Positions 7,640 to 10,009 of a stretch of DNA of 10,009 nucleotides are shown here, one piece after another; the first letter of the stretch is position 1; each line of letters begins with the position of its first letter. A program made the position numbers and the translations under genes. The notes under the pieces were generated by a model that had not been told where the DNA came from, did no database searches, and saw only the letters and a program-made list of their open reading frames with translations. The stretch covers positions 1 through 10,009 of the forward strand of contig JAJRAX010000055.1 of NCBI GenBank assembly GCA_028679775.1, given 5' to 3'. Source of the stretch: Methanothrix sp. GTDB lineage: Archaea; Halobacteriota; Methanosarcinia; Methanotrichales; Methanotrichaceae.

Positions 7640-7684
7640 CGGCAGGATCATAAATGAGGAGCACTGCGATGGAGATCTACATTC

Positions 7685-8188
7685 ATGGCTATTGAGGTTA
7701 AAACGGTCGATCAAGCCAAATCGTTAGCTCAAACTTGGATGCAGAATAGCGGGTCTTTCTCTAAGGAGATTCTCCCCTGTCCCAGTGATCTTAATTTCAT
7801 TCTTGAAGGCATGGCTCCAAATGGTATACCGTTCCTGGTTATTCAGCCAAAGCAGTTAAAAAGCGCGGTGGCTGCAATAGCAAACGTAAGGATTACTGAA
7901 TCCAGTTTCGCCTCGCTCAGTGCCTTGGATAAAGGCGAACGCGACGAGTTCCTATGGAATCTGAAAAGAGAACTCATGTTCGCGCCCCCAACGTTTGCCT
8001 TTGATCCGACTTTCGAGGAAACCGGCATTCCAAAAGGTATTCAGTTTTCCAAGGAAGTATATTATGATGAACTCACCGAAGGCAGATTAGCTGAGGCCGT
8101 TAGCTGTGTTACGAGATCTGCCCTCTGGGTGGTCTGGTCTTTTGGAAGAAGATTCGGCCCCCGCGCAGAGGTGAAGCCGGTTGAGTGA
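7685..8188 (+). CDS. DUF2299-like protein, first gene of accessory cassette
   Basis: A 167-residue soluble protein with no signal peptide or membrane segment. The layout resembles the archaeal DUF2299 family: an N-terminal helix (AKSLAQTWMQ), a strand pair ending FLVIQPK near residues 49-55, a DEFLWNLKREL helix near 87-97, a beta strand with FAFDP, then VYYDELTEGRL near 125-135 and a final helix with WVVWSFGRRFG. I match it on pattern alone, and the family has no established function. The ATG at 7685 has GGAG ten bases upstream and follows a TATA box. Its stop overlaps the next gene by eight bases, so it is translated with the STAS-like gene and probably works with it. Codon use is closer to the housekeeping block than that of the two genes after it. 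Confidence 0.65.
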   Translation: MAIEVKTVDQAKSLAQTWMQNSGSFSKEILPCPSDLNFILEGMAPNGIPFLVIQPKQLKSAVAAIANVRITESSFASLSALDKGERDEFLWNLKRELMFAPPTFAFDPTFEETGIPKGIQFSKEVYYDELTEGRLAEAVSCVTRSALWVVWSFGRRFGPRAEVKPVE

Positions 8189-8837
8189 AGTTCAAGTCGT
8201 AAATATGAGTGCCCTAAGTGGCATAGGAACCGATGCAAGGATTCGTGGGCTTGCTTGGGGACAATATTTTCAAGGATTGGAGCCGGAAGCGAATAATGTA
8301 CGCGATAGTCCCGCAGGGGACTGGAACGAGATGTTATTCTCATTTGCGACTGAGGTATTGGAAAGAATGCCTGACCAAACCTCTCTGGAACGCCTTTGGG
8401 AAACAACATCCAGGCTGTTGGCGGGTTTCACATCACCAAAAAATATAATACCAGAGACAGTCCACCTTTATAGTGGAGCAATTGCAGGCATGGATGCAGA
8501 GAAAGTCATCAGTATCCGCGATGTAGTTGGGAGCGAAGTATGTGTTGCTTCCGATATCGGTCAGAGCGTTTACCTTGCTACTAAGGCGGCATTATCACAA
8601 GGGAAGAAGATATGCCTGTCATTTGAGAATATTATAATTATTAGCTCTGCGTTTTTAAATTCATCAATAGGCCAACTCTATAATGGAGAATTTTCAGACG
8701 AAGATATCGAAGAAAGGTTAAGAATAATTAACATGTCACCTGATCACTTATTCCTTCTGGAGAGGATAAAACAAAGGGCAAAAGAATACTATAAGGATCC
8801 AGAGAGATTTGAACGAGCCACACGAATGGCATCCTGA
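8181..8837 (+). CDS. Protein with C-terminal STAS-like (DUF4325-type) domain
   Basis: A 218-residue protein in two parts. Residues 1-105 match nothing I recognise; they include WGQYF near 26-30 and a helical stretch near 48-82. Residues about 108-205 follow the DUF4325/STAS-like plan: SIRDVVGSEVC, DIGQSVYLATKAALSQGKK, a strand CLSFENIIIISS, then SAFLNSSIGQLYNGE and a helical LERIKQRAKEYY end. STAS-type folds serve as partner-switch and regulatory modules; the ISSAFLN loop (154-160) sits where anti-anti-sigma proteins carry their phosphorylated serine. The start is TTG at 8181, six bases after GAGGTG (8169-8174); ATG 8205 is the alternative. It overlaps the upstream gene by eight bases and the PIN gene by one, so an inhibitor or antitoxin role toward PIN is a reasonable inference. 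Confidence 0.7.
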   Translation: MSEVQVVNMSALSGIGTDARIRGLAWGQYFQGLEPEANNVRDSPAGDWNEMLFSFATEVLERMPDQTSLERLWETTSRLLAGFTSPKNIIPETVHLYSGAIAGMDAEKVISIRDVVGSEVCVASDIGQSVYLATKAALSQGKKICLSFENIIIISSAFLNSSIGQLYNGEFSDEDIEERLRIINMSPDHLFLLERIKQRAKEYYKDPERFERATRMAS

Positions 8838-9403
8838 TGAGGATTATGGCAGTTTTTGACATTCGATCATTCAAATATAAAGAAGAACATCATTTTCTGA
8901 TAGATGCGAATGTTTGGCTAGACGTGTTTGGGCCAATTCCTCGATCAAGACGCTCCGGCGCGTACACAACCGCGATGCAGGATATGAGAGTTAAGAAAAG
9001 CAAGATCCATTTGGATGTGCTTGTCTTGTCCGAATTCATTAACAGGTATGCCCGTATTTTGTATCAGATAGAACTCTTAAAATATCCTGGGCTTTCTGAT
9101 GAAGAAAAACCCAAATATAAGCAATTTAGGGACAGCCAGGAGTTTAAGCTTGTCGCGGAAGAGATAAGAATAGTTACAAAAGATATTATCAATACCGCAA
9201 CTGTCTGTTGCAGTCCAGATTTTAACTGTGATAAGGCGAATGCCTTTACTGATGTATTTGGAAGAGATTGTGTAGATTTTAATGATCAAATAATAGCAGA
9301 TTCATGCAAGACAAAAAACCTGCTTTTGGTAACTGATGACGGAGATTTTCAAAATTATGAGGATATCTCTATTTTAACGGCAAATCCAAGGGCTATCAGC
9401 TAA
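8837..9403 (+). CDS. PIN-domain protein (probable ribonuclease)
   Basis: A 188-residue protein with the PIN nuclease pattern: FLIDANVWLDV at residues 20-30 (Asp23), VLSEF with Glu66, DFNDQIIADS at 147-156 (Asp150), and a terminal LLLVTDDGDF strand (Asp167/Asp168, Asp170). The expected four-acid, metal-binding site is therefore present. It is larger than VapC-type toxins (about 130 residues) because of a charged helical insert between Glu66 and Asp150 that includes CCSPDFNC near 124-131. The start ATG overlaps the STAS-like stop as TGATG, a classic coupling; an ATG three codons later is the alternative. Base composition is markedly AT-rich. It is most likely the effector of a toxin-antitoxin-like or RNA-processing pair; the target is unknown. 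Confidence 0.85.
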   Translation: MRIMAVFDIRSFKYKEEHHFLIDANVWLDVFGPIPRSRRSGAYTTAMQDMRVKKSKIHLDVLVLSEFINRYARILYQIELLKYPGLSDEEKPKYKQFRDSQEFKLVAEEIRIVTKDIINTATVCCSPDFNCDKANAFTDVFGRDCVDFNDQIIADSCKTKNLLLVTDDGDFQNYEDISILTANPRAIS

Positions 9404-9485
9404 TTTTAGACTCCACTCACTTTGAAATATTACGTTAGCGACCCCAATATCTCCCGCCCCCTGAAAGGCATCTCCCTTCGGCCTG
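9404..9485. other. Spacer after the PIN gene
   Basis: This short spacer begins AT-rich and becomes GC-rich. TTTTAG directly after the PIN stop is the only terminator-like feature and is weak. TTTGAAATATTA (9421-9432) is a poor TATA candidate. I see no gene, and this looks like the edge where cassette DNA meets native DNA. Confidence 0.35.
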
Positions 9486-9489
9486 CAAG

Positions 9490-10009
9490 GCACTCGGGTA
9501 TCTGCTGCCTTGTCCCTATGCCCCCGGATTTCTCCCGGCTCTCGGCCTGCCGCGCGCCAGGGAGTGCGCCACGCGAGCCCTGGCCGCAGATCCCAGGCGT
9601 CCCATAGCCCTCCAAGAACATGGGCATCATCCTCGGGAAAGGAGGGCGGCAGCCTGCGGACTCTATGCTACCTGCGCCGCTCCAACGAGTGCGATCCACA
9701 GAATCCGCAGACCGTGTACGGCCTCGGCTTTGCCGCTTGACCGGCGACATCGAGCCGGCCCAGAAGCATTTCCAAAAGGTGCTAGAGATGGAGGCACCCG
9801 AGGACCTGCGCGGTCTGGCCAGAGATGGGCTGCGCAAGATTGCGGCTCGAGAGCTCAAGGCCACGGGGCTGAGGAAGGACGGTGATCTTCTATCCGGCTG
9901 GGCACGGCGGCTGTTCCGCGACAAGTCGCTGCAGGAGATCCGGGAGATTGTATTCTAGATCGGCATGCTGGGCAAGTACGGACTGGACATCAACGACCCC
10001 AAGGAGACG
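9490..10009 (+). pseudogene. Decayed TPR-repeat gene, 3' part running off the window
   Basis: TPR-like sequence is spread over three frames. ATRALAADPRRPIALQEHG (from about 9568) is in one frame, MGIILGKGGR (9620-9649) in a second, TLCYLRRSNECDPQNPQTVY to the TGA at 9738-9740 in a third, and LTGDIEPAQKHFQKVLEMEA onward returns to the second. That frame continues through FRDKSLQEIREIVF to TAG at 9956-9958, after which IGMLGKYGLDINDP resumes in frame to the edge. The DP-x-NP and A-x-x-F-x-K-x-L-E pieces are standard tetratricopeptide features. Three frame changes plus a nonsense codon make this a pseudogene unless the sequence is error-prone here. The start is not identifiable; 9490 is approximate. 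Confidence 0.72.

Follow-up and report, generated by a model that had tools for sequence, protein, structure and literature searches.

The window, meaning the whole 10,009-nucleotide stretch of Methanothrix DNA that was analysed, carries a cassette of three tightly spaced genes on its forward strand, preceded by putative transcription and translation signals (Table 1). The initial annotation had claimed three genes that overlap by eight bases (genes 1 and 2) and one base (genes 2 and 3), and open reading frames with exactly these overlaps were found. Its domain calls were also borne out, as all three proteins scored above the Pfam cut-offs: gene 1 against DUF2299 (PF10061, 86.7 bits, cut-off 22.8), gene 2 against DUF4325 (PF14213, 47.7 bits, cut-off 23) over residues 127–188 of 218 in its C-terminal half, and gene 3 against PIN (PF01850, 32.8 bits, cut-off 23.6).

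Table 1. Features of the three-gene cassette and its signals, in window coordinates.
Feature	Position	Strand	Remarks
TATA-like box TTATAAAA	7632-7639	+	45 nt 5' of the first start codon; sequence reading
GGAG, Shine-Dalgarno-like, precedes gene 1	7671-7674	+	by-eye reading
Gene 1, DUF2299 protein, in the usual vapK position	7685-8188	+	167 aa
Shine-Dalgarno-like AGAGGTGA, serves the TTG start of gene 2	8167-8174	+	by-eye reading
Gene 2, VapS-like STAS (DUF4325) antitoxin with N-terminal extension	8181-8837	+	218 aa, TTG start
VapS N-terminal extension, residues 1-104	8181-8492	+	partly helical, low-confidence model; not seen in VapS proteins of vapKSC loci examined
VapS residues 79-99, candidate DUF2299 grip	8415-8477	+	resembles a piece of the G021 HEPN-antitoxin extension
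Ser156 codon, aligned with Escherichia VapS Ser48	8646-8648	+	alignment to 9z7o_A, chain residue 66
Gene 3, VapC-like PIN ribonuclease	8837-9403	+	188 aa; PF01850; VapC homology

Upstream of the cassette, the genes bear ordinary housekeeping and isoprenoid Pfam domains, in keeping with the housekeeping operon named in that annotation. In the downstream region that had been called a pseudogene, the only open reading frame run through Pfam (9620-9958) matched no family; the stretch from 9430 to 9958 is GC-rich and remnant-like. A GGPP synthase gene was found in 25 of 26 genomes of the genus, and the open reading frames 3' of it vary from genome to genome. No DUF2299 gene was seen within 1500 nt downstream of it in the other 24 genomes, several of whose contigs end sooner. 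This variable stretch fits a cassette that arrived together as an accessory unit.

The STAS/PIN half of this arrangement is already known. In June 2026, Chambers et al. (PMC13373217) described a homologous anti-phage operon, vapKSC, in which, according to the available part of their report, VapS neutralises the toxic VapC until the kinase VapK phosphorylates VapS. The same part reports a solved VapS2-VapC2 structure (PDB 9z7o), a requirement for the VapS C-terminal helix in inhibition, the loss of both neutralisation and binding with an S48E substitution, and protection by vapKSC of approximately 2 logs against one phage; activation of VapK by single-stranded DNA is presented there as the authors' model, beyond their direct test (PMC13373217). 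Gene 2 matched the Escherichia VapS chain (9z7o_A) with an E-value of 3.6e-9 and gene 3 the VapC chain (9z7o_C) with 1.4e-4. By eye, gene 3 has the catalytic-type D23 (codon 8903-8905) within FLIDANVW, along with E66 and a TDDGD motif, and a single-protein model of VapS predicted C-terminal helices at residues 187-205 and 207-217. The earlier suggestion that a STAS-like protein, and not an antitoxin of the VapB kind, would restrain the PIN toxin is supported, since this is reported for the homologous Escherichia VapS/VapC in the part of the paper at hand (PMC13373217). No DNA-binding antitoxin of the VapB type, as in VapBC, was found; gene 2 matches DUF4325 alone in Pfam.

The pairing recurs widely. 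Although the window VapS alone found no relative when used as a query against genome contigs, a profile search with an alignment of DUF4325 proteins succeeded, and the best 80 of 102 loci were analysed. Only the STAS-like protein was used to fetch these loci; in 75 of the 80, its gene has a PIN gene of the same family downstream, so the adjacency goes beyond chance and the neighbourhood survey proposed with the initial annotation was strongly positive. As for the remaining five, one contig ends just past vapS (L083) and no PIN match was seen in the stretch covered for the other four (L109, L117, L120, L121). In six loci the PIN gene is partial or broken beside an intact vapS (L073, L080, L096, L099, L105, L118), and in L092 it leaves the contig; a broken PIN gene next to a whole vapS is expected if the toxin can be lost before the antitoxin, with assembly errors as an alternative. 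Among 60 relative genomes, the gene 2 and gene 3 queries hit the same six, where the matches adjoin each time, and one genome (G058) has an additional gene 2 match without a neighbouring gene 3 match. We regard genes 2 and 3 as a toxin-antitoxin pair with high confidence.

What sets the window apart is its first gene. A homologous kinase protein of approximately 290 residues is encoded close by in 67 of the same best 80 of 102 loci, nearly always directly upstream, and the VapK profile matches 71 of the 80 when fragments are counted. In one locus (L112, 5047-5919) VapK lies 3' rather than 5' of VapC, giving the order S-C-K. The VapK (STAS+GHKL kinase) profile had no match in the window, where the DUF2299 gene stands in the usual place of vapK. 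The host assembly (2.34 Mb in 410 contigs, 83% complete) holds one true VapK, on contig C287 (443.8 bits), inside a complete vapKSC; this protein reached 24.2 bits against HATPase_c, slightly below the curated 26.4. A second match to the profile in the assembly, a frame of 809 residues scoring 20.8 bits, belongs to a distant ATPase. The window thus shares with VapKSC an adjacent, tightly coupled pair of homologous STAS antitoxin and PIN toxin, with the phospho-acceptor serine and catalytic aspartate retained, but it has DUF2299 first and no adjacent vapK, a VapS with an N-terminal extension of approximately 100 residues, and an archaeal host, compared with the 289 vapKSC described across diverse bacterial groups in the available part of that paper (PMC13373217).

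The phospho-acceptor position was followed through the aligned VapS proteins, with Ser48 equated to chain residue 66 by an 18-residue tag offset deduced from the chain length of 134 and the end of the paper's range at 116. Serine occupies this column in all 74 rows with a VapK match of at least 30 bits. Among the 19 kinase-less loci with at least 1200 nt of upstream sequence, only four have serine (L099, L117, L129 and the window), 14 have another residue (eight Pro, two Ala, one Gly and three Thr) and one is unreadable at a contig end (L135); two further loci (L111 and L113) were undecidable. Fisher's exact test gave p = 2.4e-13 (74/0 vs 4/14) with kinase-side rows counted regardless of relatedness, including equal-score rows that are probably near-copies (e.g., L123/L228, L119/L126), and p = 4.3e-6 when the Pro loci were collapsed to a single count, as were the Thr loci, and the kinase side was left as is. 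This pattern (74/74 with the kinase, 4/18 readable loci without) supports the published phospho-switch from an independent, comparative side. The three threonine sites could still be phosphorylated, as the available part of PMC13373217 speaks of Ser or Thr. The eight kinase-less VapSC pairs with proline (TPAFLN; L130, L131, L132, L134, L231, L234, L235, L244) come from eight genomes of the window's class that are related to each other at genus level, and their VapS is possibly a natural constitutive form. Two further kinase-less loci differ in layout: L133 (6153-6512) is a solitary VapS with alanine at the site and no VapK or VapC match, whose neighbours read as type I restriction-modification genes, while L129 (6869-7751, G001:C48) kept the serine in a VapS with an extension of approximately 30 residues, next to a truncated PIN gene.

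Since Ser156 is kept in the window, the C287 VapK may additionally act on the window VapS. Taken further, this suggests control in trans, in which that kinase would phosphorylate Ser156 and govern the window VapSC, with DUF2299 secondary. The presence of a full VapK in the same genome speaks for such cross-control, as does the fact that, among the ten kinase-less loci whose VapC is nearly complete, the window alone has serine, the rest having Pro (eight) or Ala (one). However, genome G266 has a VapK elsewhere and yet Pro in its kinase-less copy, so a trans kinase alone does not keep the serine. Moreover, G007, the other genome with a DUF2299-headed vapS, has no true VapK (although it is only 58% complete), and neither DUF2299 nor the VapS extension would be explained. 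We therefore consider control in trans unlikely as the main mode of regulation.

Among the aligned VapS proteins, the extension goes with DUF2299. From the first possible start codon, on which several of our extension lengths are based, to the start of the STAS profile, the window VapS has 94 residues and that of G007 (L135) 99, whereas none of the remaining 93 of 95 rows exceeds 34. Both DUF2299 loci thus have an extended VapS, which all 93 remaining rows lack; these two are the only DUF2299-VapS loci from genomes, and that of G007 ends at a contig edge. No Pfam family matches the N-terminal stretch, and the ten blocks covering residues 1-100 were modelled with a mean pLDDT of only 32-63. The notion that the extension is a start-codon artefact was rejected, as it is conserved in metagenome relatives (81.7% identity across the extension in P0004 and 50.5% in P0006) and a Shine-Dalgarno-like site is present.

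For gene 1, neither the CesT nor the YbjN family was matched in Pfam, DUF2299 alone being listed at E-values up to 10. Its structural model, on the other hand, has the overall fold of type III secretion chaperones and YbjN, with CesT/YbjN-type chains matched at VIA Z scores of 8-11 in most cases. Beyond the DUF2299 family, Foldseek placed ExsC in its complex with ExsE first (E = 8.2e-4). Relationship to SecB or a disguised kinase was also considered and dropped, there being no SecB chain and no kinase among the 50 structure matches listed. Type III secretion chaperones grip the N-terminal stretch of their client. The likeness of DUF2299 to the class I type III secretion chaperones, YbjN and ExsC therefore comprises a predicted fold and a supposed N-terminal client grip, the differences being that DUF2299 has no Pfam match to them and that its client would be an archaeal antitoxin. 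Because proteins annotated as regulators, YbjN and AmyR, have the same fold as the DUF2299 model, the shared fold alone does not prove a chaperone role. The structural match to ExsC and the position of DUF2299, where the triggering kinase usually stands, would also suit partner switching, as in the ExsC/ExsE circuit. DUF2299 would then act as a sensor or adaptor that either sequesters VapS or is itself titrated away by a signal protein, triggering the toxin instead of protecting the antitoxin. We judge partner switching improbable on balance, as the middle genes of DUF2299 cassettes belong to unrelated families, which fits the binding of flexible extensions better than the recognition of one fold.

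These further cassettes came to light in 50 genomes of the family, where each of the eight best DUF2299 matches heads one. Besides the window (VapS and PIN) and G007 (VapS, the contig ending before a toxin), five comprise a middle gene and a HEPN-like gene (G000:C221, G024, G021, G020 and G251) and one a middle gene and a PemK/MazF-like gene (G027, PemK 30.2, over the cut-off). The HEPN Pfam search scored over the cut-off for G021 (27.7 bits), of which the G020 cassette is a near-copy, and under it for G024 (18.2) and G251 (13.9), while the C221 protein had no Pfam match and is called HEPN-like from its similarity to the others and a weak PADLOC HEPN match. That DUF2299 comes first in eight cassettes supports, at the level of gene order, the view that it is a functional third component.

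DUF2299 could instead be a hitch-hiker, an ordinary archaeal gene that became translationally coupled by chance and has no control role. The family is indeed widespread as a single gene: it was present in 28 of 60 relative genomes and in 46 of 294 genomes sampled across the phylum, 45 of which had a single copy. In the window's genus, many copies adjoin one particular gene, which we take to be methenyl-H4MPT cyclohydrolase (mch). The cassette copies, however, form their own group in the tree (15 of 67 rows, set apart by a branch with 100/100 support, with a long-branch warning inside the group, which includes seven metagenome proteins of unknown context). The PDB structure of a DUF2299 (PF10061) protein, 3cxj, is of an uncharacterised protein. 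In addition, all seven cassettes with a readable third gene have an RNase-like toxin gene, from three families, and the variability downstream of GGPP synthase suits a cassette that came in as one piece. Chance coupling is consequently very unlikely.

The HEPN-associated antitoxins also appear to be extended at their N-termini. Relatives from outside DUF2299 cassettes match only residues 86-201 of 201 in the G021 antitoxin, 73-164 of 165 in that of G251 and 60-191 of 202 in that of C221; a marginal exception for the first, G330 (E = 9.7e-4), matches residues 13-69, and no antitoxin-like gene was seen there. In hhalign comparisons of the cassette extensions, a 21-residue piece shared by those of VapS and G021 scored 21.17, the best of 15 pairs; none of 300 shuffles scored as high (top 18.8) and eight control extensions gave 8.0-9.9. 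The remaining four distinct middle genes of DUF2299 cassettes showed no such piece, and the resemblance is suggestive of a candidate common grip for DUF2299. That the extensions are one family was rejected, given a signal in only one of the 15 pairs.

Related cassettes can have other genes in the first position. TIGR04255 genes, all over the cut-off, come first, ahead of an antitoxin, in five loci, one on a Thermus brockianus plasmid (L201) and four archaeal (L204, L205, L208 and L210), the latter continuing with a HEPN-like gene. HEPN-like cassettes are also headed by a family of 120-138 residues in four loci (L218, L219, L223 and L224, alike by phmmer) and one of 101 residues in two (L225 and L226). 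Of the four members compared with DUF3467 (cut-off 25), three remained below the cut-off at 12.6 (L219), 19.9 (L223) and 24.5 bits (L225), and L218 had no match. The first genes of L207 and L227 belong to no known family. Sequence searches of the PDB with one DUF3467-like protein gave nothing and with one TIGR04255 protein only weak, unrelated-looking matches. Antitoxins of the G251 type measure 122, 123, 123, 123 and 149 residues with no adjacent first gene, 165 and 169 with DUF2299, and 201 and 204 with a DUF3467-like gene. The contrast is weaker for the G021 type, at up to 157 and 152 residues without a first gene, 145-178 with TIGR04255, 198 with the L207 first gene, and 201 and 202 with DUF2299. 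As HEPN antitoxins with TIGR04255 or small-protein first genes are also extended, the extension marks three-gene cassettes rather than DUF2299 alone.

Such an organisation recalls the SecB-type toxin-antitoxin-chaperone (TAC) modules (PMC5105189, PMC6377645), which, in the available parts of these papers, likewise have three genes, an antitoxin with an extra, non-conserved tail, and one type of chaperone serving unrelated toxins; the window DUF2299 would be chaperone-like by its predicted fold. The tails of TAC antitoxins are reported there to be mutually dissimilar, and one of them functioned on model proteins when placed N-terminally (PMC5105189). The window differs in that its chaperone-like gene has a predicted CesT/YbjN fold and no SecB Pfam match, in an N-terminal extension as opposed to the C-terminal ChAD, and in the order chaperone-antitoxin-toxin.

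Taken at even odds, our preferred interpretation is that the locus is a vapSC without vapK, controlled instead or additionally by a chaperone-like DUF2299 via the VapS extension. By analogy with its Escherichia homologue, for which this was shown, VapC would be a ribonuclease toxin kept inactive by VapS. DUF2299 most likely binds the extension of approximately 100 residues and so would fold or stabilise the antitoxin; stress or infection may then use up or destroy DUF2299, whereupon VapS would fail and VapC would cut RNA. The logic would be that of a TAC module whose chaperone has a different fold and grips the N-terminus. More broadly, and with somewhat less assurance, the cassettes may represent a new archaeal class of TAC in which DUF2299 grips the N-terminal extensions of unrelated antitoxins (VapS for PIN, and the partners of HEPN-like and MazF-like toxins), makes them dependent and is itself the sensor. 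DUF2299 would then have replaced the DNA-damage kinase in VapSC, the first slot acting as a socket also for TIGR04255, DUF3467-like or kinase genes.

That the VapSC core here lacks its kinase trigger and has another control gene instead amounts to a natural experiment on sensor exchange in toxin modules, and DUF2299 gains a predicted fold and a genomic role. Should the chaperone interpretation hold, chaperone-addicted antitoxins would not be restricted to SecB, and a fold best known from bacterial secretion would guard toxins in methanogens. In a literature search of largely open-access journal papers, the name vapKSC appeared in one paper, no paper naming DUF2299 or TIGR04255 was found, DUF4325, alone (two papers) or with a PIN domain (one), returned only papers with unrelated titles, and the combination of STAS-like, toxin-antitoxin and PIN returned none.

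The PADLOC defence models (2023) matched none of the three cassette proteins, and neither VapS nor DUF2299 found a relative in viral contigs. When three cassette middle genes were searched against plasmids, one gave a Thermus match and the other two gave nothing. The G021 and G020 cassettes adjoin cas3 and cas4-cas1 genes. Bacterial vapKSC (L048-L127) often sit among restriction-type genes: within the best 80 of 102 loci, a methylase/AAA cluster lies no more than three genes upstream in 18 and a Res-type helicase cluster lies downstream in 10, with one member of each cluster checked against Pfam.
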